A stretch of DNA of 23,989 nucleotides from a bacterium (lineage in GTDB: Bacteria > CSSED10-310 > JAJRTK01): positions 1 to 23,989 of the forward strand of contig JAJRTK010000320.1 in NCBI GenBank assembly GCA_024278345.1, written 5' to 3'. A model generated the notes under the pieces. The model was not told where the DNA came from. It ran no database searches and worked only from the letters and a program-made list of their open reading frames with translations. This document shows, one piece after another, positions 426 to 22,149 of this stretch. Within the stretch, counting starts at the first letter, position 1, and each line of letters starts with the position of its first letter. Both the position numbers and the translations under genes were made by a program.

Positions 426-2492
426 TTGCCCATGCTTCGAATCAAGGCTCCGCGACTGCGAAACTTGTCAGAATCTCTTCACCTGGAATGGCTCGAAACC
501 AATGGGTTGGGCGGCTATGCCTCATCCACCGTGCTTCTGGCGCACACGCGAGGTTACCATGGGCTCTTGGTGGCTTCCCTGGATGACGTGCATCCCAAGG
601 GTCGCCACGTTCTGCTTTCGAAAGTGGAGGAAGTGGCACATCTGGGTGGCACACCCTACTTGCTATCGACGAACCTCTATCAAGGGGAAGTGGTCCATCC
701 CAGTGGTTTCGAGCATCAGGAGCTGTTTATTCGGAGCCTCTTTCCCACCTTCACCTTCCGCTTGGGAGAGGTGGAGCTGGGGCGCGAAGTCTTCATGGTC
801 CATAGCCGGAACTGCGTAGTGATTGTCTACACGGTCAAGAACCTTCCCACCGATATGGAGCTTCGGCTGGAAGTGCGCCCCTTGGTCGCTTACCGCCATT
901 TTCACAAATTGGCTGCGAAGAACCCAGAACTTGACATGAATTCCGTCATCGAAGAGGAGAGGGTTCGCTTGACACCGTATGAATCGCTTCCGCCGCTCTT
1001 TCTCTACCACGATGCGGAGAGTGTCGAGCCCACGGGCCACTGGTACGACAATTTCCATTACCCCAGGGAAGAAGAGCGTGGGTTACCCTGCCGGGAAGAC
1101 CTGTTTAACCACTGCCTGATGACCTACGTTTTCCAGAAGCCAGGGGAACGTTTTCTGGCGGCGTCATTGGAGGAGTTCGAAGAGGCACCTTCCGCCGGGT
1201 CGCTGCGACGCGGGGAGCTCGAAAGGCGGACGGAACTGGGCTTGACGGTGCTCAGGTCGTCTACCCGCCGCCATCTTCGGCTGGGTGCGGACCAGTTCCT
1301 GATCCGGAAGGGGGACCGGCCCACCGTGGCCGCTGCCTATCCCTGGCAGCCGGAACGGATGCGGGATTCGCTCATCGCATTGCCGGGCTTGACCCTTGCC
1401 CACGGTCGGCCTCAAGTGTGCCGGGAAACCCTGGAAAGCTGTTTCCACTGGCTTCAGGATGGCCTTCTGCCGGACCATTTTTCCGAAGAAAATGGCGAGC
1501 CGGTCTACACGGCTTTCGAACCTTCGTTGTGGTTTCTGGAGGCGATCTGGAAGTATTTGCGCTGGACCGACGACTGGGACTTCTTGAGTCAGGCGGTATA
1601 TGATCGTTTGGCGCGGGTCATCGACCATTTCATCAAAGGCACGTCCCACGAGATCCGGATGGATCCCCAGGACTTCCTTCTGGAGGGCGGTGTGCCGGGA
1701 CTACAGCTTACCTGGATGAACGCCAAGGATGGCGGCGTAGTGACGCCGCGAATGGGCAAACCGGTGGAAGTGCAAGCGCTGTGGTACAACGCGCTCCGGA
1801 TCATGGCCCGCCTGACAAGCCACCGCGATCCCGACAGCCGCGAGACCTCTAGCTATTTCGAATTGGCGAGCAACGTCCGCAAGAGCTTCAACCAGAGGTT
1901 TTGGAGTATCGACTACGAGTTTGTCGCGGACAACATCAATTGGGATGGAACCCTGGATTTGAGCCTGCGCCCCAATCAAATCTTGAGCGCCAGTCTTTCG
2001 TTCCCAGTTCTGGAACGGGTCTACCAATCGCGAATGCTGGAAGCGGTTCGGAAAGAGCTCTGGACGCCGTACGGGCTTCGGACACTGAGTCCCCAAGACC
2101 CTCGTTATCGCAGCCGTTATGAAGGCAATGTCTCGGATCGGGTCATGGCGTGCCACCAGGGGCCGGCCTGGAGCTGGCTGCTTGGGCCCTACTACAACGC
2201 TCTCTTTCGCGCCAAGGGAAAGGACGGGGGGAAAAGCAGGGACTCGGGGAAGAATCTTGGCGAAGGGATCGCCGCTAGAATCCACAGGGAATTGGCACCG
2301 CTGCGGGAGCACTTGGAGGGAGCCGCGGGGGTGGGCGGAATCTCGTCGGTTTTTGACGGAGACCCGCCACATACACCAAGGGGAACCCTGTTTCGTGCAG
2401 CGACAGTGGGCGAGATTTCAAGGCTTTACGCAGAGTATTTGCTACCTGTGCTCAACCGCTCAAAGCCCGAGGATGCCTTCCCCGAAGGGTGA
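426..2492 (+). CDS. Glycogen debranching enzyme-family protein (amylo-alpha-1,6-glucosidase type), probably catalytically altered
   Basis: The 688-residue protein has the two-domain layout of bacterial/archaeal debranching enzymes. The N-terminal domain (about 18-240) carries EWLETNGLGGYASST and YHGLLVA. The C-terminal alpha/alpha-barrel domain (about 300-680) carries WMNAKDGGVVTPRMGKPVE, ALWYNALR, LRPNQILSASL, CHQGPAWSWLLGPY and FDGDPPHTPRG. Family members normally hydrolyse alpha-1,6 branches of glycogen-like glucans in the cytoplasm. Three normally conserved acidic positions differ: Asp of the TWMDA motif is Asn432, Glu of the ISE-FDGD motif is Ser641, and Asp of the VDASLWF-like motif is Glu365. 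The first two are, to my knowledge, the general acid and base, so activity is doubtful. The TTG at 426 is the longest start; ATG at 432 (two codons in) with GGGAAGG upstream is equally good. The 3' end overlaps the convergent pspA-like gene by 33 bp. The fold assignment is firm; function is not. Confidence 0.9.
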   Translation: MPMLRIKAPRLRNLSESLHLEWLETNGLGGYASSTVLLAHTRGYHGLLVASLDDVHPKGRHVLLSKVEEVAHLGGTPYLLSTNLYQGEVVHPSGFEHQELFIRSLFPTFTFRLGEVELGREVFMVHSRNCVVIVYTVKNLPTDMELRLEVRPLVAYRHFHKLAAKNPELDMNSVIEEERVRLTPYESLPPLFLYHDAESVEPTGHWYDNFHYPREEERGLPCREDLFNHCLMTYVFQKPGERFLAASLEEFEEAPSAGSLRRGELERRTELGLTVLRSSTRRHLRLGADQFLIRKGDRPTVAAAYPWQPERMRDSLIALPGLTLAHGRPQVCRETLESCFHWLQDGLLPDHFSEENGEPVYTAFEPSLWFLEAIWKYLRWTDDWDFLSQAVYDRLARVIDHFIKGTSHEIRMDPQDFLLEGGVPGLQLTWMNAKDGGVVTPRMGKPVEVQALWYNALRIMARLTSHRDPDSRETSSYFELASNVRKSFNQRFWSIDYEFVADNINWDGTLDLSLRPNQILSASLSFPVLERVYQSRMLEAVRKELWTPYGLRTLSPQDPRYRSRYEGNVSDRVMACHQGPAWSWLLGPYYNALFRAKGKDGGKSRDSGKNLGEGIAARIHRELAPLREHLEGAAGVGGISSVFDGDPPHTPRGTLFRAATVGEISRLYAEYLLPVLNRSKPEDAFPEG

Positions 2493-3527: not shown

Positions 3528-3672
3528 GGTCAGGTCTCCGTCGATCCCCAGGGTTTACCAGGCAGCCAAAATCAGTACGCCATGAACTGCCCGGTGTCAA
3601 ACCCCAGGGACGCAACCGCGCCAAACAATCTTTCCTAATCTGCCGGACTTTGGACGGCCTTGGTCATCGGTG

Positions 3673-3859
3673 GTCGGCGAAGCCGACTCTCCCTGCGGTC
3701 GGCCCCGGCCACCCTGCAGAATCTCAGGCGCCGCGCCAGGGCCTCCGGCCCTGGAACCCGGCGGAGGCGGCATCCGGACCTCCGCGGGGATCGCTGCTCC
3801 CAGGGAACCCGTTGCTTTTCATTGCAACGGGTCAAATCGCCAGGGAGCACGCTCCCTGG
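3673..3859. repeat. Cluster of extragenic palindromes (REP-like)
   Basis: Four hairpins lie in a row. (1) GTCGGC/GCCGAC, 3673-3687, loop GAA. (2) CCAGGGCC/GGCCCTGG, 3736-3754, loop TCC. (3) ACCCGTTGC/GCAACGGGT, 3807-3832, 8-nt loop. (4) CCAGGGAGC/GCTCCCTGG, 3840-3859, 2-nt loop. Hairpin 2 and its left flank recur at 23941-23989, and hairpin 3 recurs, inverted, at 23815-23838. This marks them as dispersed genomic repeats rather than single regulatory sites. Confidence 0.75.
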
Positions 3860-4050
3860 ACCCACATCTTTTTACGCTACGCGTTTTTGGGGAGGGTGGG
3901 CGGAGCCGACTCTCTTTTACCTGGAGACCCCGGATTCCGAGTGGAACGGATCGTGGGAAAAACCTTCGGCTTGCCGGGCTGGAGATGGATTGGCCCGGCT
4001 GCTATCCTTGGGATCTGGCTGTGGATTTTGCTCAAGACGGGCCGGGGATA

Positions 4051-4060
4051 GGAAGGAGAG
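4051..4060 (+). promoter_or_regulatory. Ribosome binding site fixing the kinase start at 4071
   Basis: GGAAGGAGAG lies 10 nt before an ATG (4071) that opens directly into a canonical kinase N-terminus (MDQPERIGPYEIQGRLGAGG). It is the best Shine-Dalgarno match in the leader and argues against the 137-residue upstream extension. A GTG at 4068 is one codon upstream and also possible. Confidence 0.7.
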
Positions 4061-4070
4061 GAAAAAAGTG

Positions 4071-7000
4071 ATGGATCAGCCTGAGCGAATCGGACCCTAT
4101 GAGATCCAGGGCCGCCTCGGGGCCGGAGGGATGGGTGTCGTCTACAAGGGCCGGCATCAAGAAACAGGCCAAGGAGTGGCCATCAAAACGGTTCGCGTTT
4201 TGCACAGCCGCCTCTTGCAAAGCATACGGCGGGAGATCCGAGCCCTTGCCCGCCTCCAACACCCCGGTGTTGTGGGAATTGTTGCCGAAGGCGTCGAGGA
4301 CGGCATTCCCTGGTACGCCATGGAGCTTCTGGATGCCGTCACCCTCCGGGAACTCCAAGGGGAAAGCCTGGCTTCCTCCTCGAAAATTCCCTCCTGGCAC
4401 CTGGGACTCGGGGTTCTCCAGCAGCTCTGCGTACCCCTTGCCTACATTCACGGGGAAGGCGTTGTCCACCGCGATCTCAAGCCGAGCAATATTTTGGTTC
4501 GCGCCGATGGGCGGCCCGTTCTAGTAGACTTCGGGGTGACCGCTTCGTTTGGCGGCGCCGAGGGCCGGGAAACCCTGACCTTGGAGGCCAGTGGCCCCGG
4601 GGCCCTCTCTTTTCTGGCCCCCGAACAGATCCGAGGCGATCTGCCCGATGCCCGCGCCGATCTTTATGCCCTGGGTTGTATCCTTTACTGGGTTCTGGTG
4701 GGGCGGCCTCCATTCCGGGGACGAACCCCCCGGGAAACGATCCGCGCCCACCTGTACCAGCATCCCCCGCTTCCCTCGGAACAAGTGCCCGACCTTCCTA
4801 GAGAGCTCGATGATCTGGTACTACACCTCCTGGCAAAAGAGCCCTCCATGCGCGTGGGGCATGCAGCGGATGTCGCGCTCCATCTCGAACGCCTGGGCAT
4901 CCACCAGAACGGATTCCCCGAAGCCCCGCCTCCCAGGAGCTACTTCTACCGCCCGGCTTTGGCTGGACGCCAAAAGGTCTTGGAATCCTTGACTCACGCG
5001 CTTTCGGAAGCCGTGGCGGGCCGTGGCTCGGGAAAACTCCTGGCCGGAGAGTCCGGGATTGGAAAGACCCGGCTGGTCATGGAGCTGATCCAAGCTGCAG
5101 GCCGGCAAGGAGTTCGCCTGTTGACAGGCGAAGGCGCTCCGGACTCGGGAGGCATACCTCTCCCACAGGCCAGCGTGCGTCCTCCTCTCTCCCTCTGGCG
5201 CCGCTTTCTCCAGGCGGCAGCTGATCGATGCCGAGAAAAGGGCCCGAAAGAAACCCAGAGGCTTCTGGGGGACCGAGGATCTTTTCTTTCCCTCTACGAA
5301 CCGGCACTGGCCGATTTGCCTGGGTTCAAGCCCCATGAAACCTTCGAGGAAGAGCAATCCCTCCCGCCGACAGCGGCGCGGTTACGGCTCTTTTCGTTCC
5401 TGGAAGAGGTCTTAAGCGCCTTCATCGGAGACGAGCCAACCCTTCTGGTCTGCGACGATTTAGGCTGGGCCGACGACCTTTCCCTGGGCTTCCTTGAGTT
5501 CTTGCTCCGCGCTGATTGGTTCCAGCGCCGGAGGGTCCTCTTCCTGGGCCTCTACCGCTCCGACGAACCCGGCGAGCACCTGGCATCCTTGAAAGAGTTG
5601 ATCGCCGAACGAATCGAACTCCACGGCCTGCGGGAAAACGATGTGTCAGCCATGGTGGAAGACATGCTGGCACTCCCCTTCCCCAACGCCGAGTTCATCG
5701 CCTTTTTAACCAGATGCTCCAAAGGCAATCCCCTCTTTGTGGCGGAATACCTCAAAAGCGCGCTCCTGGAAGGCGTACTCTGCCGCGATCCGGAATCCGG
5801 GCGCTGGAGACTCACCGGAGAAAAAGAGACGGCTGGTGATTCCGGCGCTTCCATGCGGCACCCGAGCTTCCGCGATCTTCCCGTTCCTCAGACGCTCCAG
5901 GAGATGTTGGCGCAGCGGATGAAAGGGCTCGCCAGCGAGGCCCTCCAGCTCGTGGCAAGGATTGCCGTCGTGGGGCGCGAAGCTCCGGTTTCCTTGGTCA
6001 AGGAGCTTCTTCCCGTAACAGAACGAGATTGGGTGGAGGCCATCGATCTCCTCCTAGCACGCCAGATCCTTGAAGAACCGCACTCCGGCTCGCTTCGGTT
6101 CCGACATGAATGGCTCCACCACCACGCCCTGAACTCTATTGACCCCACGACCCGCCAAGGCTTGCACCGCCGAATCGCGGAAATCCTTGTTTCCGCACCG
6201 GGCCTGGATAGGCAAAAGCATCTGGTCAGCGTGGCCCAGCATTGGCATGCTGCCGGTGAAATCCAACACGCCGTCGATGCCTATCTCAAGGCGGCCCGCC
6301 TGGCAAAGAGGCGCTACGCTCTGGCCGAGGCCGAAAAGCTGTATATGACCACCTTGGCACTCCTTCCAGAACCTTCCAGCCTCAGAAATGAGATTCGGAA
6401 CGAAGTTGCTCGGGCGGTCTTGCTCATCCAGGGTCGCGCTGGCGAAGCTGCCAAGGAGCTCCACACCGCCCTGGAAGACGCCCGCGCCCTGGGGCTGGAA
6501 CGCTCCCAGGCCGACTGCTTGTTGGGCCTGGCCAAAGCTTGTCGCGACAGCGGACGCAGATCCCCGGCCCAGGCCTCCGCCGAGGCGGCCTTCGAGATTT
6601 ACAGAAAGCTCGGCGACCGCGACGCCGAGGGCGCGGCGCTGGCGGAACTCGGGATTATCTGCATGGAAGATGGGCGGTATGATCAGTCCCTCTTTTTTCA
6701 TCAAAAAGCTCTCCAGCTCCACAAAACCGCTGAAAACCGCACTGCGGAGATCGATACCGTGAACCGCATGGGCCGCATCTACCGCGAACAGGGACGTCTA
6801 CGGAAGGCCCGGGCTCTCTTTGAAGAGGCTTTTAGTTCAGCCCAGCGCCTCGACGACCGGCGATACGAAGCGATTGCCCTGAGCAACCTCGCTTCCATCG
6901 CCTGGCAGGATGGCCAGCTCGACGATTCTCTCGTCATGCTGGGGCAAGTGCTGGAAATCTTCGAACAGATGGAGGACCGGCAAAACCAGGCCCTCAACCT

Positions 7001-7625
7001 TCTTTACCTGGCCCGGGTCCAGGCGGATCGGGGTTTGCTTTCCCTGGCACGGGGCCTGGCGGGGGATGCGGTAGCCATCGCCCACCGGATCGGCCAACCC
7101 TGCCTCGAAGCTGATGCCCTCCTCCACCTGGGGCTACTCCAAATCGATGCGGGGCTGGTTTTGGAGGCTCGTGATTCTTCCCTCCGCGCTCTGGCCATTT
7201 GGCGCCAGATGCGGGACGAGGTCGCGGCGGCGGGAGCTCTCCGCGTTCTGGCGCGGGTGGAACGAAGGGTCAAGGGCGACCTCGAGCGGGCCCGGCAGCT
7301 ACTGGATCTGGCTCTCCAAAGCTGGGAACGGGCAGGCAAGACGCTTATGTCGGTGGAAGGGCTCTGCGAGCTCGGACATTTGGCTCTCGCCCGCGGAGAC
7401 AGCGGCGGAGCCTGGCTCGACAAGGCCAGGGAGCTGGCCCGCGCCTGCCACGTCTCCCCACGAGGCCACTATGGCAAAGCCCTGGAAAGACTCGAAAACG
7501 CTGTCCGCTGCTGGGAATCGGGGGAACGGCTCCAAGGTGGCGAGGCCCCGTGGGACCTCCCCAAAGCCTGGAAAGAAGGCGAGGAATCAACCAAACTCAC
7601 CGAAGAGATCGACCTTTCTGGCTAG
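4071..7625 (+). CDS. Ser/Thr protein kinase fused to an AAA/STAND-type ATPase and TPR repeats
   Basis: This is a predicted 1184-residue cytoplasmic multidomain protein. A Hanks-type kinase occupies about 9-273: glycine loop GAGGMG (17-22), ATP-binding Lys39 in VAIK, catalytic HRDLKPSN (133-140), DFG (153-155) and APE (183-185). All key residues are present, so it should be active. An AAA_16-like ATPase follows (about 295-560), with Walker A GESGIGKT (326-333) and Walker B-like LLVCDDLGWAD (458-468). Then come a helical linker and about ten TPR-like helix pairs (about 730-1130) containing blocks such as ALAELGIICMEDGRYDQSL. No membrane segment is seen. The architecture resembles kinase-ATPase-TPR regulators of myxobacteria and related groups, where TPRs bind partners and nucleotide drives switching; the partner is unknown. 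It converges with the LysM-FecR gene, leaving a 4-bp gap. Confidence 0.95.
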   Translation: MDQPERIGPYEIQGRLGAGGMGVVYKGRHQETGQGVAIKTVRVLHSRLLQSIRREIRALARLQHPGVVGIVAEGVEDGIPWYAMELLDAVTLRELQGESLASSSKIPSWHLGLGVLQQLCVPLAYIHGEGVVHRDLKPSNILVRADGRPVLVDFGVTASFGGAEGRETLTLEASGPGALSFLAPEQIRGDLPDARADLYALGCILYWVLVGRPPFRGRTPRETIRAHLYQHPPLPSEQVPDLPRELDDLVLHLLAKEPSMRVGHAADVALHLERLGIHQNGFPEAPPPRSYFYRPALAGRQKVLESLTHALSEAVAGRGSGKLLAGESGIGKTRLVMELIQAAGRQGVRLLTGEGAPDSGGIPLPQASVRPPLSLWRRFLQAAADRCREKGPKETQRLLGDRGSFLSLYEPALADLPGFKPHETFEEEQSLPPTAARLRLFSFLEEVLSAFIGDEPTLLVCDDLGWADDLSLGFLEFLLRADWFQRRRVLFLGLYRSDEPGEHLASLKELIAERIELHGLRENDVSAMVEDMLALPFPNAEFIAFLTRCSKGNPLFVAEYLKSALLEGVLCRDPESGRWRLTGEKETAGDSGASMRHPSFRDLPVPQTLQEMLAQRMKGLASEALQLVARIAVVGREAPVSLVKELLPVTERDWVEAIDLLLARQILEEPHSGSLRFRHEWLHHHALNSIDPTTRQGLHRRIAEILVSAPGLDRQKHLVSVAQHWHAAGEIQHAVDAYLKAARLAKRRYALAEAEKLYMTTLALLPEPSSLRNEIRNEVARAVLLIQGRAGEAAKELHTALEDARALGLERSQADCLLGLAKACRDSGRRSPAQASAEAAFEIYRKLGDRDAEGAALAELGIICMEDGRYDQSLFFHQKALQLHKTAENRTAEIDTVNRMGRIYREQGRLRKARALFEEAFSSAQRLDDRRYEAIALSNLASIAWQDGQLDDSLVMLGQVLEIFEQMEDRQNQALNLLYLARVQADRGLLSLARGLAGDAVAIAHRIGQPCLEADALLHLGLLQIDAGLVLEARDSSLRALAIWRQMRDEVAAAGALRVLARVERRVKGDLERARQLLDLALQSWERAGKTLMSVEGLCELGHLALARGDSGGAWLDKARELARACHVSPRGHYGKALERLENAVRCWESGERLQGGEAPWDLPKAWKEGEESTKLTEEIDLSG

Positions 7626-9175: not shown

Positions 9176-10627
9176 TCACTCCTCGGGAGGCGAAACGACG
9201 AGCACCGGCCACTGGTAATCCACGCGATTTCCCGCGAGATCCTGGGCGATGACGCGCAGAATGTGATTGCCGGGCTTACGGAAGGTGAGCTTTGGGGGCG
9301 CGTCGGCCAGGGGCGCGGCGTCCAGGCTGTATTGGTATTTGGAGAGAAATGGCTTGGGAGGATCGGTCTTGATGATCAGGGTCTGCCCCACCGTGAGCTC
9401 GATGGGAATGGCAGGGCCGTGATGCTCGAATTCAGGCGTCTGGATCACGATCTTTGGAGCTTCTTCATCGGGACGGCAGGGAAGGGTCATCTCCGTGGTG
9501 TTGCCCACTGTATCCTCGGCACGGACCAAGAGAGGCGCACGAACCCGAATAGGGCCCGACGCGGACTTCCATTCCTTGGAATCCGTGGACCAGAGGAGGT
9601 TCCGGACACCCGAGTTGTCGGAGGCTTTCACCCGAAAAACCATGGGGCTTCGACAGACGAGATGTCCCGTCGGAGCGACGGCCCAGTCGCTGAGAATCGT
9701 CCACTGGATGTTGGGAGGGGTCCCCTCGACGTCGAAAGAGATTGTGGCCCCGGCGCTGTGCCCCGTGCGGTCAACCGCGGTAATCTCCAGTTCATGGTGG
9801 CCAGGAAGCCAAGTTGCCCATTGGGCGCCCAAGGCTTCCCCCTTCTTATTGAGAACCATGGAAACGGGACCAAGGGAAGGCTTACGCTCTGACGCCCCCG
9901 TGGCCTCCGAGCTTCGCCACTCTCCCTCCGCCGACGAAATCACCCAATGCTCGATGCCGGACTGCTCGTCGTCGATAAGAATCGCCAGCCGTGTCCATGG
10001 GGCCACCACGGGGTTTACCGATCCAGACGTAATTTCATCCAAAAAACTGACCCGGATGTTCGGCGGAGCGTTATCGACGTGGAGCCGGAGCTCGCTGGCA
10101 TCGGAACGGTTTCCCGCACCATCTTCCGCCCAGGCCTGAAGCTCGAAGGGTCCCGCGCCTTTGAGAACCGCTCTCGGAGAATCCGTCTGGCGACCGCCGG
10201 AGGGTGACTGGAGGCGGAGTTTTCCCGTGGCCACCTCCGAATCGTGGGCCCGGACGGACACCCGCGTGCCTTCGCGCACCCAGAGGAGCCCCTGGTCTCC
10301 GCGAGCGGCTGGGGGATCGAGTATCAGCTCCGACCGTGGCGGATCGCCGTCGATCCGAAGACGGAACCAGCGTATGGGAGAAAGGCTCCCCTTGGCATCC
10401 CTTTCAGAGAGAGCCAGCCAGTGGTCGCCTGATTCCGGGGCGAGCATCGGGGCGGTGACCGGTTGGAGATAACCGCCGTCAAGGGCTGCCTCAAATGCAG
10501 ATCCCAGGCCTCCTACCGGCAACAGGATCTGGCCTCCGGGCCGGGCGTAGAGTGTTGGAGGGGATTCTTCAGTCTGTGCTGTGCTCGCCCACAGAAGCAG
10601 TAGGCATGAAGCAAGGTGATAGCGCAT
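9176..10627 (-). CDS. Exported protein of four OmpL47-like beta-sandwich modules
   Basis: This 483-residue protein has an N-terminal signal peptide (MRYHLASCLLLLWASTAQ) and four Ig-like repeats. They open with PPRSELIL, PPNIRVSF, PPNIQWTI and APKIVIQT and close with AEDGAGN, AVDRTGH, AEDTVGN and AQDLAGN (about 96-186, 187-303, 304-390, 391-480). This D-x-x-G-N ending is typical of OmpL47-type modules in surface or periplasmic proteins, which may bind ligands or act as spacers. The ATG at 10627 was chosen because the signal peptide begins there, with GAAAG upstream; the open frame extends 127 codons further but only as a shadow of the kinase gene. It overlaps the upstream kinase gene by 59 bp and sits 7 nt before the LysM-FecR gene, which ends in the same kind of module. 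Confidence 0.88.
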   Translation of the reverse strand: MRYHLASCLLLLWASTAQTEESPPTLYARPGGQILLPVGGLGSAFEAALDGGYLQPVTAPMLAPESGDHWLALSERDAKGSLSPIRWFRLRIDGDPPRSELILDPPAARGDQGLLWVREGTRVSVRAHDSEVATGKLRLQSPSGGRQTDSPRAVLKGAGPFELQAWAEDGAGNRSDASELRLHVDNAPPNIRVSFLDEITSGSVNPVVAPWTRLAILIDDEQSGIEHWVISSAEGEWRSSEATGASERKPSLGPVSMVLNKKGEALGAQWATWLPGHHELEITAVDRTGHSAGATISFDVEGTPPNIQWTILSDWAVAPTGHLVCRSPMVFRVKASDNSGVRNLLWSTDSKEWKSASGPIRVRAPLLVRAEDTVGNTTEMTLPCRPDEEAPKIVIQTPEFEHHGPAIPIELTVGQTLIIKTDPPKPFLSKYQYSLDAAPLADAPPKLTFRKPGNHILRVIAQDLAGNRVDYQWPVLVVSPPEE

Positions 10628-12521
10628 GGCACGTCTTTCTAGCTTGTGAAAGGATTTCAGTTTCCGGTTCCCACCGCCACCGGTATCGAACAGCCAGGGT
10701 CTGAAGCCTTTGGGCGACAATGTCGGCTTTGTCGATGCGGCGAAGGGGATCCTTTTCCAGAAGTCCCATAATGATGTCATCGAGCTCGTCGTGGACGTTA
10801 ATTGCGACTCTTCCGATCCCATCAACCTCCTTTTCCAAGGTCTTGATGACGATACGCTGGACCGTCTCCTCCTGGAAGGGATGCACCCCGGACAAGCATT
10901 GGTACAAAGTGACGCCCAAGGCAAACAGATCGCTCTTTTCGGTGAATCCCTTCCCCAGCAAAGTCTCGGGAGGCAAGAAGCCGGGAGTCCCAAAAACCAC
11001 CCCGGCATCGGCGTTCAGCGAGGAAATGAACTGCGAAAGCCCAAAATCGCTAAGCTTGATGGAGCCATCGACGCCTAGCAAAATGTTCGCCGGCTTGAGA
11101 TCGTGATGGACGAGTCCTTTGGCATGCGCCGCGCCAAGAGCCTGGGCGATGGCGATTCCAAGGGAAGTGGTCTGGCTTGATGGAAGCGCGCCTCGGCACT
11201 CCAAATAGGCGCGGAGACTTTGCCCCTCCACAAATTCCATGGCGATGAACGCTTCGTTCGCCGTCTCTTCGGCATCGTACACCGCCACGATATGAGGATG
11301 GCTAAGCTGAGCCGCCGTCATTGCCTCTTTGAGCAGCTCTTCGCGACGGATGGCATCTCGATCTCCTTGGAGTTCCTCCTCCAGGTTCAGGGTCTTGAGA
11401 GCAACGAGCCGGCGGAGCTTTGGATCCCAACAGCGAAAAACCGTGCCCATGGATCCGGAGCCGGCGACATCGATGACCCGGTATCGCCCCAGGAAAAGAT
11501 CACCCAATGCCTGCTGCTCCTTCAGCCGTTGGCGAAGTAACCGGAATGAAGCGGACAGAGCGTCGATTTCATTGCCGTGGCCGGTGGAAGGGCCCAGGAG
11601 CTTTCGTTGCGCGGCCAGCAGGTGGCGGATGGGGTGGACAATCGTCCGAAATGCGGCAGCCGATGCGAGAAGAGTTAACAGGGCCGCCATTCCCACGGCA
11701 CTCCAGGAGCTTTGCCAGAGACTCCGCCCGAGTGCCTCGGCGATGTTCGAAGGCTGGAGGGAAAGGACGGTCCAGGGAGTTCCCCCCACGGGGCTGTAGG
11801 CGCCCAGGAGCTCGGGACCGTTGGTTTGGGAGAGACGGAGAACTCCAAACGTTCTGGTTCTTCGCACCTTGTCGGCAAAGAGCTTGGAGACCGCTTCCCT
11901 GGATGAAAGCATGCCCAAGACCGCTTTGCCCTGGTCATCAGCGAGAGCCAATTCCGCATCGGTCCCGATTTCCGCTGGCCGAAGAAAGTCTTGCACGCGC
12001 TCCGCGTCGCAGAGCAAACGGAGCAACGCGGTCCCGCCCGGCAAGGGAATATCGATACGGAACCAGACCTCTTCGCCAAGCTCCATGGCAATGATCCCGC
12101 TTCCCGCGACCGCAAGCCCCTCGTCCATCCGTGACGCCAGATCTTTGCGCTGCGCACGAATCACTTCTTGACCTGCAAGATCGGTGATGGCAACGGCCCC
12201 TATATCGGCTCGGGCCTGGAGAATCCCCGACAAAAGCGCCAGGGAACCTGGAGAGCGCGGCGCTTCGTAAACCACCGGATTCGATCCCACGGCGATCCCC
12301 ATGGATCGGCGGGCCTCTAGAAATGCCTCCACCTGCTCCGCCACCGAGCGGGCCGCCACCACGTGAGTGCGGAGAACCTGCTCCGTCATGGCCTCCCGGT
12401 TGAGGCCCGCCAACTGGTAGGCCAGAATTCCCAGAGGCAGGAAGCCCACGGCACACAGGGCGACGATGACTCTTGTAAGGATCCCGGTCTTCCGCCGTTT
12501 GGGTCGGTCATCGGTTCGCAT
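10569..12521 (-). CDS. Membrane-bound Ser/Thr kinase with an extracytoplasmic Cache-like sensor and HAMP-like linker
   Basis: The 650-residue protein has TM1 at about 14-36, an outside domain (about 40-268) and TM2 at about 272-294. A HAMP-like stretch (about 290-340) leads to a cytoplasmic kinase domain (about 347-610). The outside domain ends with LLGAYSPVGGTPWTVLSLQP, the pattern of double-Cache sensors of small ligands. Kinase landmarks: GSGSMG (354-359), Lys376 in VALK, DLKPAN with Asp474, DFG (492-494) and PPE (517-519). The usual HRD is HHD (472-474), so this is a non-RD kinase with the catalytic Asp intact. Bacterial Ser/Thr kinases usually have the sensor C-terminal to the kinase; here the order is histidine-kinase-like. 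It lies 39 nt after the upstream gene with no clear ribosome site, consistent with coupling. Confidence 0.93.
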   Translation of the reverse strand: MRTDDRPKRRKTGILTRVIVALCAVGFLPLGILAYQLAGLNREAMTEQVLRTHVVAARSVAEQVEAFLEARRSMGIAVGSNPVVYEAPRSPGSLALLSGILQARADIGAVAITDLAGQEVIRAQRKDLASRMDEGLAVAGSGIIAMELGEEVWFRIDIPLPGGTALLRLLCDAERVQDFLRPAEIGTDAELALADDQGKAVLGMLSSREAVSKLFADKVRRTRTFGVLRLSQTNGPELLGAYSPVGGTPWTVLSLQPSNIAEALGRSLWQSSWSAVGMAALLTLLASAAAFRTIVHPIRHLLAAQRKLLGPSTGHGNEIDALSASFRLLRQRLKEQQALGDLFLGRYRVIDVAGSGSMGTVFRCWDPKLRRLVALKTLNLEEELQGDRDAIRREELLKEAMTAAQLSHPHIVAVYDAEETANEAFIAMEFVEGQSLRAYLECRGALPSSQTTSLGIAIAQALGAAHAKGLVHHDLKPANILLGVDGSIKLSDFGLSQFISSLNADAGVVFGTPGFLPPETLLGKGFTEKSDLFALGVTLYQCLSGVHPFQEETVQRIVIKTLEKEVDGIGRVAINVHDELDDIIMGLLEKDPLRRIDKADIVAQRLQTLAVRYRWRWEPETEILSQARKTCHALSPCFMPTASVGEHSTD

Positions 12522-14653: not shown

Positions 14654-15436
14654 TTAGGAGGCAAGCTTCATCAGGACGATCCCCACAAGGACCACGGTAC
14701 TTATCAAAAGCACGATGAGAAGCATCACCTGTACCGACCAGGGCAAGTAAGAAGCCCGTTGCCGAAGGAACTCGGCGGCATCCGCTTCAAACTTTTCTCT
14801 CGACATGGGATTATCGACTTTTTCAAGGGCCAGAAGGTAGCTCCCCACTTGAAAGCGTTCTCCCAGGGCCAGAACCGCCTGTTCGATGCCCCGTCCCTCC
14901 ACAAAAGTGCCGTTTGTGCTCTCCAGGTCGTGGAGCTCCCATTGGTCATCCTGGTAACAGAGCATTGCGTGGCGCCGCGACACATCGGCGCTGGAGAGAA
15001 CGATATCGTTGTCTGAGCTTTTTCCAAGATAGAGGCAGTCGGCTCTCACTTCCACGGTTTTGAGGAGACCTTCGCCATCACTTATCAGGAGGCGATAGCC
15101 GGCTCCGCTCTGCGCGAGCTTGTAGGAGCTCGAACCTGTGGGGTAGGAATTCCTTTCGTAAAGGAATGTGCATTCGCCGACCCGGATCTTCATGCCAGGC
15201 TTCAGTGACCTCTCAGAAACCGCCTTGCCATCGACATAGAGACCGTTCCGGCTGTCGAGATCCTCCACGTGGACCTGATCGCCGTCGCGGATGGAAAAGA
15301 GCGCGTGCCTCTTGGACACCTTCGAACCATCCAAAACGATATCGTTGTTGGGGTTCCGGCCAACAGTCGTGATCCGATGCTCCAAGAGAAAGCTCTTCGG
15401 AGATCCCGGACCCTCCACAAGATTCAGACAATGCAT
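14654..15436 (-). CDS. Tail-anchored protein with two FHA domains
   Basis: The 260-residue protein carries two forkhead-associated domains, modules that bind phospho-threonine peptides. FHA1 (about 5-95) has VGR (25-27), SKRH (41-44) and RNG (63-65). FHA2 (about 114-205) has LGK (137-139; Lys in place of the usual Arg), SRRH (153-156) and STNG (173-176). A single hydrophobic helix at 234-257 (VQVMLLIVLLISTVVLVGI) is followed by only three residues, so the FHA domains should face the cytoplasm on a C-terminal anchor. It is 16 nt downstream of the SCP2-like gene, clearly in one operon. Two Hanks-type kinases encoded nearby are natural candidates for making its ligands; that is an inference from proximity. 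Confidence 0.94.
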   Translation of the reverse strand: MHCLNLVEGPGSPKSFLLEHRITTVGRNPNNDIVLDGSKVSKRHALFSIRDGDQVHVEDLDSRNGLYVDGKAVSERSLKPGMKIRVGECTFLYERNSYPTGSSSYKLAQSGAGYRLLISDGEGLLKTVEVRADCLYLGKSSDNDIVLSSADVSRRHAMLCYQDDQWELHDLESTNGTFVEGRGIEQAVLALGERFQVGSYLLALEKVDNPMSREKFEADAAEFLRQRASYLPWSVQVMLLIVLLISTVVLVGIVLMKLAS

Positions 15437-18381: not shown

Positions 18382-21300
18382 ATGTGGAGAAAAGCAGTGA
18401 CTTGGTTACGCGATTGGTTTTCAGTCACCGAAAAAACGCTTGAACGCTGGGCGCGGCGCGGTCAGTGGCAGCGTTTGGCCGAGCTCCTAGGAAACGATGA
18501 GCGGCAGGAACTGCACGAAGCGGCGGTGGACAAGCTCGATGCTTGCCTTGAGGAACATCGGCCCAGCCTCGGAGCTTCCGACCTCGATCTGCTCGCTTCG
18601 ATCTTGGGCAACTGGGTCGATCACAAATCGGAGACTTGTTTTAAATGGCTCGGGAAGTGGGTGAAATCTCTTTCATCCGGAGTCCGCACTCAGCTCTTCG
18701 TGCGCCTTGCCGCCAGCAATTCTGGGCGACCGTGGCTGGTCCAGCTCCTCGTGGATCCGGAAACTTCCTCCGAAGTCGCTGCTGCCGCTTTCGAGTGCCT
18801 GGGAGCGAAGCGGAGCGATCTCGCTCACGTACCAGATGACCTGGACCCCGACTCCGCTGGGGCCCGGCGCGTCCTGCAAATGTTGCGTTCAATGCTCGAT
18901 GAGTCGCGACCGGGGAAGCTCCTGAGGCCCTTGATGCAACGAGGGGAAAAAGCTGTCGCGCGAGCCGCTTCCCACTTGGCCCAGGAAATCGTCGATGGGT
19001 CTCTCTCCGCCGGTGAAACTCTCGAGGGGGCAGCACTTGGGTTGGGGACGGAGCTAAGCCGCCAGCTTCCGGGATGGTTGCCGAAGCTCATGGAATCAGT
19101 TTCGCGGCCGAATCTCTTGCTCAGGCTCATTTCCGAGGTTGCGAGGGAATGGAATCCCGAAGAAGCCGTCTCCCGCTTGCTTTCTTTCCAAGGGCGCTTG
19201 GACTCCGATGATCCTGGGCGGGCCGAGTTGTTCGAGGTTCTCAAATCCATGGGAGTTTCGGCTGATTTCTGGCGCCAGACGTACGAGCAGGCCTCCCGGA
19301 CCGCACGGGAGTGGCTTGTAGATATGGCTGTGGAGAGGGGCGAATTGACGAGTTTTGCCGCCGATGTGCTCGTTGAGGTCATTCTTTCGGAGCAAGGAAA
19401 TCCCGAGCGCATCGATAGAATCGTGACCCTGCTCAGTGATTCGGTGGCGTCAGAGGTTCTCCACAAAGCTTATGCCGCAGTGAAACCAGAGACGCGACAA
19501 CTCCTCTTTGAGGCCCTTGGCCGGAGCGAGCGCGTTCGTCCGGTTTTCTACGAAAAAATCATTCTCAATTCAGCCGAACCGCCAGAACGCAGAAAACTCG
19601 CTGTCATCCGCTTGTTCGAGGTTTCCAGTGCCTCCAGCTTGCTCGATCTCTTGAGCCAGCTCGACGGCGCCGGCAAGGTGGCCATCGAGCCCCTGTTGCT
19701 CGAGATTTACCTCGATGAGCAGGAAACCTCGGAGCCACTCGCCTCCGTGCTTCTGGAGCAGATCCTTACGGCTTCCGATGAGCGGCTGGAAGCGATCATG
19801 GATCAGTTTGATGCCGCCGAAACGATCCCGCCACGCGCCAGAAAACTCGTGGAGCAGATCGGCGTGAAGCACGGCGAGTCGGGACTGCTGGTTCGGCAAC
19901 TGGAGAAAGCAGCCGGCCCTGTCCGGGATCTCCTTTACCCCATCGCGCAACGCCGGATCCAAAAGCGGCTTCTTGGCTACCCTCCCTTGCCTCTTGCACC
20001 CAACGAGGCGCTTTTGCTCAAGAAACTCGCCACGGCGGATCTCGGCTGGTTCCGCACCCTGATCCGCCGTGCGGCCACACCCGATGTCTTGTGCGATGCC
20101 GTACTCCTTGTGGCCGGAAATCTCAGACGGGATGAAGGGCCTTTTGAGCTGCTATGCGCTTATTACCGCCAAAGGGGAATCAGCGATAGCGTTGCCCGGA
20201 AGATCATCAAAACGCTAGTCAAATACCAGGCTGGGGCAGAAGTTTACGCAAGCCTCTACAACCATTCTAGCCGGTCGTTGCGCCTGAAGGTCTTGCAGAT
20301 TCTTCGGGAGCACCCAAGAGTTAGCGAACTTTCCTTGAGCTTTTTGGGAAACGTCCTTTTGGATGAGCACTCTGGCCGCCAGAGTCGAGGATGCGTTTTG
20401 CACATCTTGGAACGGCGAGGAGAGCTTAATCGCTTGGTCGATTTCTACAAACAGGCTGATTCCCGGGGCAAGGCAATCCTCTTTTCCCTCTGTGAGAAAG
20501 TTCCCTCCGTGGGCAAGGAGTTTTACGAAAGCGTTTTGCTCGATCTCAAGGAAGATTCGAAGCGAAGGTTCCATGCCGCGCTCTGGATTTCACGACACTC
20601 TGATCGCGGCGGCCTGAGCCGGTGGCTCGAGAAGCGCCCCTCGGAGTGCCATCACGAAATCCGCCGGTGGCTGGTCAACCGATACCTCAACCGCGCGACT
20701 CCGACCTTAGAGGCGACCGCTCTACTCAAGTCGATGGCTCCATGCCGCCCCGAGGATCTATTGGGCGTCCTCGAAACAGCGGCTTCAGAAACCTCTTTTG
20801 AAGGCCGCTTGCTGGAACTTGGGCGTACGGCAACAGCACGCGAGGGAGGCGTCGCGGTACTGGTGCGCCTACTGAGAGAAGCCGGTGAAGCCTTGGGTTC
20901 CGTTGCTCAAACACTGGCTCGGGAACACCTGGAGCAGCGAGCCGCTGGCGGTGAACAAGGGACCTTCGAAGGAGTGGACTTCGAGCTGGCCGTTGAACTG
21001 AGCGTGCGAGACAAGGATTGGCTTGCCAAGATCGTCGATGCAACACCAAAGCCACGGGAACTAGAGAGCTTGGTGACTGCCGTCCGGGAACGCATGCCAG
21101 ACGACCAGACACTTGCAGATCTCGCTGTCAAAGTCGCCCCTGTTCCGGCAATCGAAGAGCCCGAACGGGAGGAGCCGGAAGGCGAGGCGGATACGGCTCA
21201 GGATGAAGCGGCGCCTGATGAAGCCGAGACCGAGGCGGAAGCGGCTCAGGCCGACGTAGAGCCGGAGGTCGAGGCTGATCTAGAGCCGGAAGAACCTCAG

Positions 21301-22149
21301 GCCGACGTAGAGCCGGAAGCCAAGGCGGAGACCGAGGCGGAAGAACCTCAGGCCGACGTAGAGCCGGAGGTCGAGGCAAAATCGGGAGAGATGGAGCCGG
21401 AAGCTGAGGCTGATCTAGAGCCGGAAGCCAAGGCGGAGACCGAGGCGGAAGAACCTCAAGCCGACGTAGAGCCGGAAGCTGAGGCTAAACCGGAAGCCAA
21501 GGCGGAGACCGAGGCGGAAGAGCCTCAGGCCGACGTAGAGCCGGAAGCCAGGGCGGAGACCGAGCCGGAAGAGCCTCAGGCCGACGTAGAGACAGAAGGC
21601 GAGGCGGATACGGCTCAGGATGAAGCGGCGCCTGATGAAGCCGAGACCGAGCCGGAAGAGCCTCAGGCTAATCTAGGGTCGAAAGCCAGGGCGGAGACCG
21701 AGCCGGAAGAGCCTCAGGCCGACGTAGAGACGGAAGGCGAGGCGGATCTAGAGCCGGAAGCCCAGGCGGAGACCGAGACGGAAGAACCTCAGGCCGACGC
21801 AGAGACAGAAGGCGAGGCGGATCTAGAGCCGGAAGCCCAGGCGGAGACCGCGCCGGAAGAGCCTCAGGCCGACGCAGAGACGGAAGGCGAGGCGGATACG
21901 GCTCAGGATGAAGCGGCGCCTGATGAAGCCGAGACCGAGACGGAAGAGCCTCAGGCTAATCTAGGGTCGAAAGCCCAGGCGGAGACCGCGCGGGAAGAGC
22001 CTCAGGCCGACGTAGAGCCGGAGGTCGAGGCTGATCTAGAGCCGGAAGAGGCTCAGGCCGAAGAAGCCGAAGAGGAAGCTGAGGCCGGAACAGATTCTTG
22101 TGCTTTGGATGAACCGTCTGATTCCAGTGAGCCGAAATTTTTGATGTAG
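18382..22149 (+). CDS. Large helical-repeat (HEAT/ARM-like) protein with an expanded acidic repeat tail
   Basis: I do not recognise a named family for these 1255 residues. Residues 1 to about 915 are almost entirely amphipathic helices with recurring Leu-rich pairs, for example LLDLLSQLDGAGKVAIEPLL and LRLKVLQILREHPRVSELSL. This is the look of an alpha-solenoid scaffold. Residues about 925-1235 are a Glu/Ala/Pro/Gln/Asp repeat region, followed by a short Ser/Asp-rich end (DSSEPKFLM). No signal peptide or membrane helix is seen, so it is probably cytoplasmic. The ATG at 18382 is preceded by AGGGA with unusually short spacing. The tail should be very acidic and disordered, suiting interaction with basic partners or phase-like assembly; that is inference. 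It has no co-directional neighbour. Confidence 0.9.
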   Translation: MWRKAVTWLRDWFSVTEKTLERWARRGQWQRLAELLGNDERQELHEAAVDKLDACLEEHRPSLGASDLDLLASILGNWVDHKSETCFKWLGKWVKSLSSGVRTQLFVRLAASNSGRPWLVQLLVDPETSSEVAAAAFECLGAKRSDLAHVPDDLDPDSAGARRVLQMLRSMLDESRPGKLLRPLMQRGEKAVARAASHLAQEIVDGSLSAGETLEGAALGLGTELSRQLPGWLPKLMESVSRPNLLLRLISEVAREWNPEEAVSRLLSFQGRLDSDDPGRAELFEVLKSMGVSADFWRQTYEQASRTAREWLVDMAVERGELTSFAADVLVEVILSEQGNPERIDRIVTLLSDSVASEVLHKAYAAVKPETRQLLFEALGRSERVRPVFYEKIILNSAEPPERRKLAVIRLFEVSSASSLLDLLSQLDGAGKVAIEPLLLEIYLDEQETSEPLASVLLEQILTASDERLEAIMDQFDAAETIPPRARKLVEQIGVKHGESGLLVRQLEKAAGPVRDLLYPIAQRRIQKRLLGYPPLPLAPNEALLLKKLATADLGWFRTLIRRAATPDVLCDAVLLVAGNLRRDEGPFELLCAYYRQRGISDSVARKIIKTLVKYQAGAEVYASLYNHSSRSLRLKVLQILREHPRVSELSLSFLGNVLLDEHSGRQSRGCVLHILERRGELNRLVDFYKQADSRGKAILFSLCEKVPSVGKEFYESVLLDLKEDSKRRFHAALWISRHSDRGGLSRWLEKRPSECHHEIRRWLVNRYLNRATPTLEATALLKSMAPCRPEDLLGVLETAASETSFEGRLLELGRTATAREGGVAVLVRLLREAGEALGSVAQTLAREHLEQRAAGGEQGTFEGVDFELAVELSVRDKDWLAKIVDATPKPRELESLVTAVRERMPDDQTLADLAVKVAPVPAIEEPEREEPEGEADTAQDEAAPDEAETEAEAAQADVEPEVEADLEPEEPQADVEPEAKAETEAEEPQADVEPEVEAKSGEMEPEAEADLEPEAKAETEAEEPQADVEPEAEAKPEAKAETEAEEPQADVEPEARAETEPEEPQADVETEGEADTAQDEAAPDEAETEPEEPQANLGSKARAETEPEEPQADVETEGEADLEPEAQAETETEEPQADAETEGEADLEPEAQAETAPEEPQADAETEGEADTAQDEAAPDEAETETEEPQANLGSKAQAETAREEPQADVEPEVEADLEPEEAQAEEAEEEAEAGTDSCALDEPSDSSEPKFLM
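21154..22089 (+). repeat. In-frame acidic repeat tract (EEPQA units, higher-order 288-nt duplication)
   Basis: The anchor EEPQA occurs 11 times, with the CCT codon at 21295, 21346, 21454, 21523, 21574, 21661, 21712, 21787, 21862, 21949 and 22000. Spacings are 51, 108, 69, 51, 87, 51, 75, 75, 87 and 51 nt, all multiples of three. A second element, GEADTAQDEAAPDEAETE, occurs at 21181, 21598 and 21886. The blocks around 21598-21720 and 21886-22008 repeat each other at exactly 288 nt. Units are nearly identical at DNA level, pointing to recent expansion by slippage or unequal exchange. Confidence 0.92.

Follow-up and report, generated by a model that had tools for sequence, protein, structure and literature searches.

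A gene at the left end of the analysed window (the whole 23,989-nucleotide contig) encodes a homologue of glycogen debranching enzymes in which both catalytic residues have been replaced, with Asn432 at the position of the general acid and Ser641 at that of the general base. We give about an even chance to the reading that this protein is a pseudo-glucosidase which binds glucan. The wider finding, and the one most worth testing, is that the catalytic acid has been lost repeatedly within this family, and in many Bacteroidales "debranching enzymes" too.

Gene, domains and predicted fold

Judged from its translation, the product of the open reading frame at 426-2492 is a full-length homologue of the archaeal-type amylo-alpha-1,6-glucosidases, consisting of a GDE_N and a GDE_C domain. 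The features discussed below are as follows, with residues of the Candida glabrata debranching enzyme (CgGDE) given where they correspond.

426-2492, + strand: gene for a GDE_N/GDE_C protein of 688 aa (ORF list, Pfam, NCBIfam, codon use)
486-1127, + strand: GDE_N, residues 21-234, beta-sandwich (PF12439, 213 bits)
1287-2420, + strand: GDE_C, residues 288-665, (alpha/alpha)6 barrel (PF06202, 304.8 bits, cut-off 21)
1332-1367, + strand: loop AAYPWQPERMRD, residues 303-314, AGYPWFxDWGRD in the family; G304A, F308Q, W311R and G312M (alignments)
1473-1475, + strand: N350D, which brings a carboxylate into the conserved PN motif; a candidate replacement acid (conserved-column comparison)
1518-1520, + strand: E365 (GAA), replacing the family-invariant Asp of VDAxLW (codon read; conserved-column comparison)
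1719-1721, + strand: N432 (AAC), general-acid position, D1241 in CgGDE (codon read; profile and family alignments)
1728-1730, + strand: D435, where the family has a hydrophobic V/I; a second candidate replacement acid (alignment)
2142-2165, + strand: VMACHQGP, residues 573-580, DxAYHQGT in the family; D573V, Y576C and T580P, with H577 and G579 kept
2346-2348, + strand: S641 (TCG), general-base position, E1492 in CgGDE (codon read; profile and family alignments)
2382-2414, + strand: GTLFRAATVGE, residues 653-663, GCIAQAWSVAE in the family; Q657R and W659A

Translation starts at TTG 426 or, more likely, at ATG 432. The protein scores 375.3 bits against the NCBIfam model for archaeal-type glycogen debranching enzymes (TIGR01561), just over its curated cut-off of 364.15, and Pfam found no GH13 catalytic domain (PF00128) of the kind that would mark a GH13 debranching enzyme such as GlgX or TreX. 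As originally predicted, the 688-codon frame is intact. Its codon usage is normal and, like its GC content at each codon position, GC3 included, matches that of the neighbouring genes.

An AlphaFold2 model built from an alignment of proteins from the window and the fetched loci reached a pLDDT of 91 and a pTM of 0.91 over the full length. Comparison of this model with solved structures by VIA-align returned CgGDE (5d06; Z 36.6, 471 residues, rmsd 4.6) and the Thermococcus gammatolerans amylo-alpha-1,6-glucosidase (7vma; Z 34.1, 529 residues, rmsd 3.9) as the best matches, with GH94 phosphorylases also ranking high. By these matches the predicted fold is intact, with an (alpha/alpha)6 barrel like theirs.

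Loss of the catalytic residues

The mapping to CgGDE was obtained by aligning a profile of 24 homologues to the solved structures, with residue numbers counted along the alignment in 5d06 numbering. In this profile alignment N432 is paired with D1241 and S641 with E1492, and CgGDE variants D1241A and E1492A are each without debranching activity (PMC4837477). The D1078N variant is likewise inactive (PMC4837477); D1078 lies in the -1 subsite and corresponds to D314, which together with R313 forms the -1 sugar clamp and is kept. The original prediction had placed the codons GAA, AAC and TCG at 1518-1520, 1719-1721 and 2346-2348 (residues 365, 432 and 641 here), listed the scaffold motifs and the GTLFRAATVGE block, and assigned the last two of the three residues to the general acid and base; the codons, motifs and block are all present, and the catalytic assignment is borne out both by the profile and by 71 of 75 domain-wide relatives with Asp and Glu at these positions.

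The substitutions extend well beyond the catalytic pair. When conserved columns were defined by at least 90% conservation among 56 intact enzymes, 63 columns resulted, 13 of which are altered in the window protein (G304A, F308Q, W311R, G312M, N350D, D365E, D432N, D573V, Y576C, T580P, E641S, Q657R and W659A). All are located in GDE_C, at the active-site motifs WGRD, PN, VDA, YHQGT and QAW around the catalytic pair, and the WGRD loop now reads AYPWQPERMRD. Loss of this loop, N350D, T580P, Q657R and W659A are additions to the changes first described. The contrast between the domains (13/50 conserved columns altered in GDE_C vs 0/13 in GDE_N) gives a Fisher p of 0.053, which is marginal because GDE_N has few conserved columns. 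For comparison, each of the 56 intact enzymes loses between 0 and 11 conserved columns, and 50 of them lose four or fewer. Besides all 13 conserved GDE_N positions, the protein retains R313-D314, W430, R442, R515, N517 and H577. Since the change from Glu to Ser takes two base changes and 11 other conserved active-site positions are altered, a sequencing slip does not account for the pattern.

Occurrence among relatives

Loss of the acid was seen in only four of the 75 alignable relatives of the domain-wide sample (L007, L038, L243 and L257), and in none of the 75 were both catalytic residues lost. Two of these four loci (L007:1474-3489 and L257:1030-3036) are far more degraded, with TWMDA turned into VPYHS or SWIPL and HQG gone, the ISE/IPE glutamate being kept. 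The original prediction had suggested looking for close relatives with these substitutions; one protein outside that sample, Omnitrophota L065, has the N+S pair at 32% identity, and none within it does.

The notion that N432 is a rare change was ruled out by a scan of GTDB contigs, which gave at least 116 matches to WMNA followed by TPR-x-G-x-x-[VI]-E, mostly from Bacteroidales among the matches listed; this pattern selects for Asn only and is uninformative on other replacements of the Asp. All 80 loci fetched from these matches encode GDE_C proteins, nearly all of which retain the Glu. In the order of Phocaeicola, a homologue is found in 136 of 149 genomes. The best-placed 30 loci of that search comprise five D/E proteins, the remainder being acid-less, and 20 loci lower in the ranking comprise 13 D/E, three N/E, two N/Q, one D/G and one unalignable at the acid. 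Both types occur in both samples and thus coexist within the order. Among all Bacteroidales loci examined, six (L219, L220, L305, L307, L222 and L298) carry N+Q (four), H+A (one) or D+G (one) at the catalytic pair.

Acid-less copies were also found in Phycisphaerales (L111) and Anaerolineae (L063), in genomes that each have an intact copy as well, an arrangement that fits a paralogue freed from catalysis. The window's genome has no such intact second copy among its contigs, where one GDE copy was found. No GDE homologue was present in the seven other genomes of the phylum that were examined, and a GTDB contig search with the window protein alone returned no relative.

In Omnitrophota, GDE_C domains also occur inside giant frames of about 5,000 to 38,661 codons (G486:C8 60375-61568 (L190), G442 (L187), G584 (L195), G521 (L185) and G463 (L183); also G447:C6, G443:C5 and G546:C8); in those loci that were read, both Asp and Glu are present. 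In six other loci of this group (L184, L186, L188, L189, L191 and L193) GDE_N of about 265-300 aa stands alone, with no GDE_C in the same frame.

Phylogeny and a possible order of loss

A quick tree of 102 rows, from which the active-site columns had been left out, revealed at least 12 changes at the acid position and at least five at the base position. E641 is lost in none of the 70 acid-intact rows and in six of the 32 acid-less ones, although these rows share ancestry and are not independent events. Similarly, W311 is lost in 6/70 acid-intact vs 29/32 acid-less rows and W659 in 8/70 vs 24/31, many of the acid-less rows being kin within Bacteroidales. Independent-pairs sign tests could draw on seven pairs only, too few for significance. 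R313, W430, R442, R515, N517 and G579 are retained almost everywhere on the tree, and most acid-less relatives retain E641. On these alignments, the pattern looks like a specific dismantling of catalysis under a binding scaffold that is still constrained. A stricter rule, by which Glu is never lost while Asp is kept, agrees with the 70 tree rows and is broken by L298, which has Asp together with Gly at the Glu position.

The window protein clusters with four D/E enzymes (support 91), on a terminal branch of 1.19 against a median of 0.55, and L065 lies inside an Omnitrophota clade (support 99). A single double-loss clade of the two, which are only 32% identical, is refuted by this placement; since L065 sits apart within its own clade, the N+S pair is, by the tree, of independent origin in each. 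None of 33 acid-intact relatives has an acidic residue at position 350 or 435, L065 has Ser and Ala there and thus neither carboxylate, and the acid-less Bacteroidales have a new carboxylate of their own at N362 (75% D/E). A search for a replacement acid shared across the acid-less proteins found none that also covers the window protein.

Taken together, these data make possible, at somewhat less than an even chance, a convergent and ordered conversion that has taken place many times, in which Asp-to-Asn exchange and loss of the two pocket tryptophans would be followed by loss of the base, yielding non-hydrolytic glucan binders or new chemistry. The window protein and L065 would then be end points, and many of the Bacteroidales "debranching enzymes", including at least one encoded in a glycogen operon, would be part-way.

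Genomic context

The gene lies beside a PspA/IM30 gene and a gene for a Ser/Thr kinase with ATPase and TPR parts, and no glycogen gene was recognised among the Pfam matches of the window's other long frames. A signalling cluster unrelated to the debranching homologue is encoded at 3660-7625, 10569-12521 and 14654-15436; it comprises two Ser/Thr kinases, of which one carries the ATPase and TPR regions, and a tandem FHA-domain protein. A frame of 1255 aa at 18382-22149 has no Pfam match.

Elsewhere in the assembly (6.06 Mb in 550 contigs, estimated to be 88% complete) are genes for glycogen phosphorylase (GlgP, L288:5245-7800), branching enzyme (GlgB, L287:3199-5808), a GlgA fragment at a contig end (L289:1-1005) and a GH57-DUF3536 protein (L286). 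Within this 88% of the genome no GlgX, TreX, pullulanase or other debranching enzyme was detected, GlgB being the sole GH13 match. A phosphorylase normally requires a debranching partner, and the presence of GlgP in a genome where no other such enzyme was found is therefore what weighs most heavily against a simple pseudoenzyme. Either the partner is encoded in the missing 12%, or the window protein fills this role through a changed mechanism, or the cell mobilises its glycogen only in part.

Alternative explanations

That no such partner was found also favours an active, re-engineered enzyme in which the carboxylate has moved to D350 or D435, water is activated by another residue, and debranching or a related transfer persists. 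Because both carboxylates are new in the window protein and lie in pocket motifs where acid-intact relatives have none, this alternative is retained, though we consider it unlikely. It gains from the carboxylate at N362 in acid-less Bacteroidales and from the Phocaeicola coprocola locus beside a GT4/GT5-like transferase and GH57, and there is precedent in active alpha-amylases with an aberrant triad such as BmaN1, an enzyme whose altered catalytic set can be active (PMC5347038). However, the base is gone too, along with W311, W659, Q657 and Y576, and the absence of both carboxylates from acid-less L065 speaks against a common replacement. A phosphorylase-like or transferase reaction appears quite improbable: GH94 phosphorylases rank high among the structural matches and Ser replaces the base, and GH94 inverting phosphorylases, which share the fold, have no general base, but they keep their general acid Asp, where Asn is found here, and a transferase reaction also needs an acid. 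With the acid missing as well, phosphorolysis is unlikely.

Relaxed selection, by which the gene would be decaying and now functionless, could explain the long terminal branch and the 13 lost conserved positions. Yet the changes are confined to the active site rather than spread, the conserved GDE_N positions are all kept, and the frame of 688 codons, the codon use and GC3 are normal, which together make decay less likely; the model gives a confident full-length fold and the same co-losses recur in other lineages, so that we regard this explanation as rather improbable. That the protein is an ordinary debranching enzyme, misaligned here and with its real catalytic pair intact elsewhere, is very improbable and largely refuted: TWM-N-A and IS-S-xFDGD have strongly conserved neighbours on either side, and the structure-profile and family alignments, which agree with each other, disclosed no intact pair at other residues.

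A glucan-binding pseudo-glucosidase is the best single reading, in line with the pseudoenzyme idea of the original prediction. Replacement of the Asp by Asn has no diagnostic value by itself, however, as it recurs in many lineages and in at least one glycogen operon. The scaffold would be that of a full-length amylo-alpha-1,6-glucosidase whose hydrolytic machinery has been dismantled and whose part for holding a terminal glucosyl residue has been kept. With acid and base both absent, the inverting hydrolysis of this fold should fail, and alpha-1,6 linkages would probably not be cut. What remains, namely the Arg-Asp pair that clamps the non-reducing glucose, a number of pocket residues and the unaltered conserved GDE_N positions, may still bind the ends of glycogen chains or branch stubs of a single glucose. 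The protein might then act by binding, in scaffolding, targeting, sensing or branch-point protection, beside glycogen synthase, branching enzyme and phosphorylase.

Implications

Annotation pipelines name such proteins glycogen debranching enzymes, and TIGR01561 passes the window protein; many proteins so labelled may bind glycogen without cutting it. If there is no cutting, the debranching step is wrong in glycogen models of this organism and of many Bacteroidales. The natural series D/E, N/E, N/Q and N/S allows direct tests of whether catalysis was lost or changed.

Comparison with known systems

The lost tryptophans may presumably be likened to those of glucoamylase (Trp52/Arg54). The likeness to GH94 phosphorylases is one of structure only, the acid position being Asn in the window protein. 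With the archaeal-type amylo-alpha-1,6-glucosidases (TIGR01561; T. gammatolerans 7vma, PMC9142091) the protein shares the two-domain layout and the fold, but its acid and base are replaced (N432, S641) and the WGRD and QAWS tryptophans are lost. No literature was found under the PDB code 7VMA itself; debranching activity has been measured for an amylo-alpha-1,6-glucosidase of that name from the same T. gammatolerans strain (PMC9142091). The GH133 domain of eukaryotic CgGDE (5d06) has the barrel and the -1 subsite Arg-Asp in common with the window protein, which, in contrast, is without the GH13 transferase part and without both catalytic carboxylates that are essential in CgGDE (PMC4837477).

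Nearer in active-site state are the acid-less Bacteroidales GDE_C proteins, such as that of Phocaeicola coprocola (L071), which share TWMN, have likewise lost the tryptophans of WGRD and QAWS, mostly retain the base Glu and are about 26-32% identical to the window protein. At the one Bacteroidales locus examined (L071:1139-5835), the acid-less gene adjoins a GT4/GT5-like glycosyltransferase and GH57, a neighbourhood resembling the archaeal GT4-GH133-GH57 cluster that has been described (PMC11046441), whereas the window gene adjoins PspA and kinase genes. The same N, S pair is shared by the 32% identical Omnitrophota protein L065 (JACQQS010000052.1, 3912-6122, + strand).
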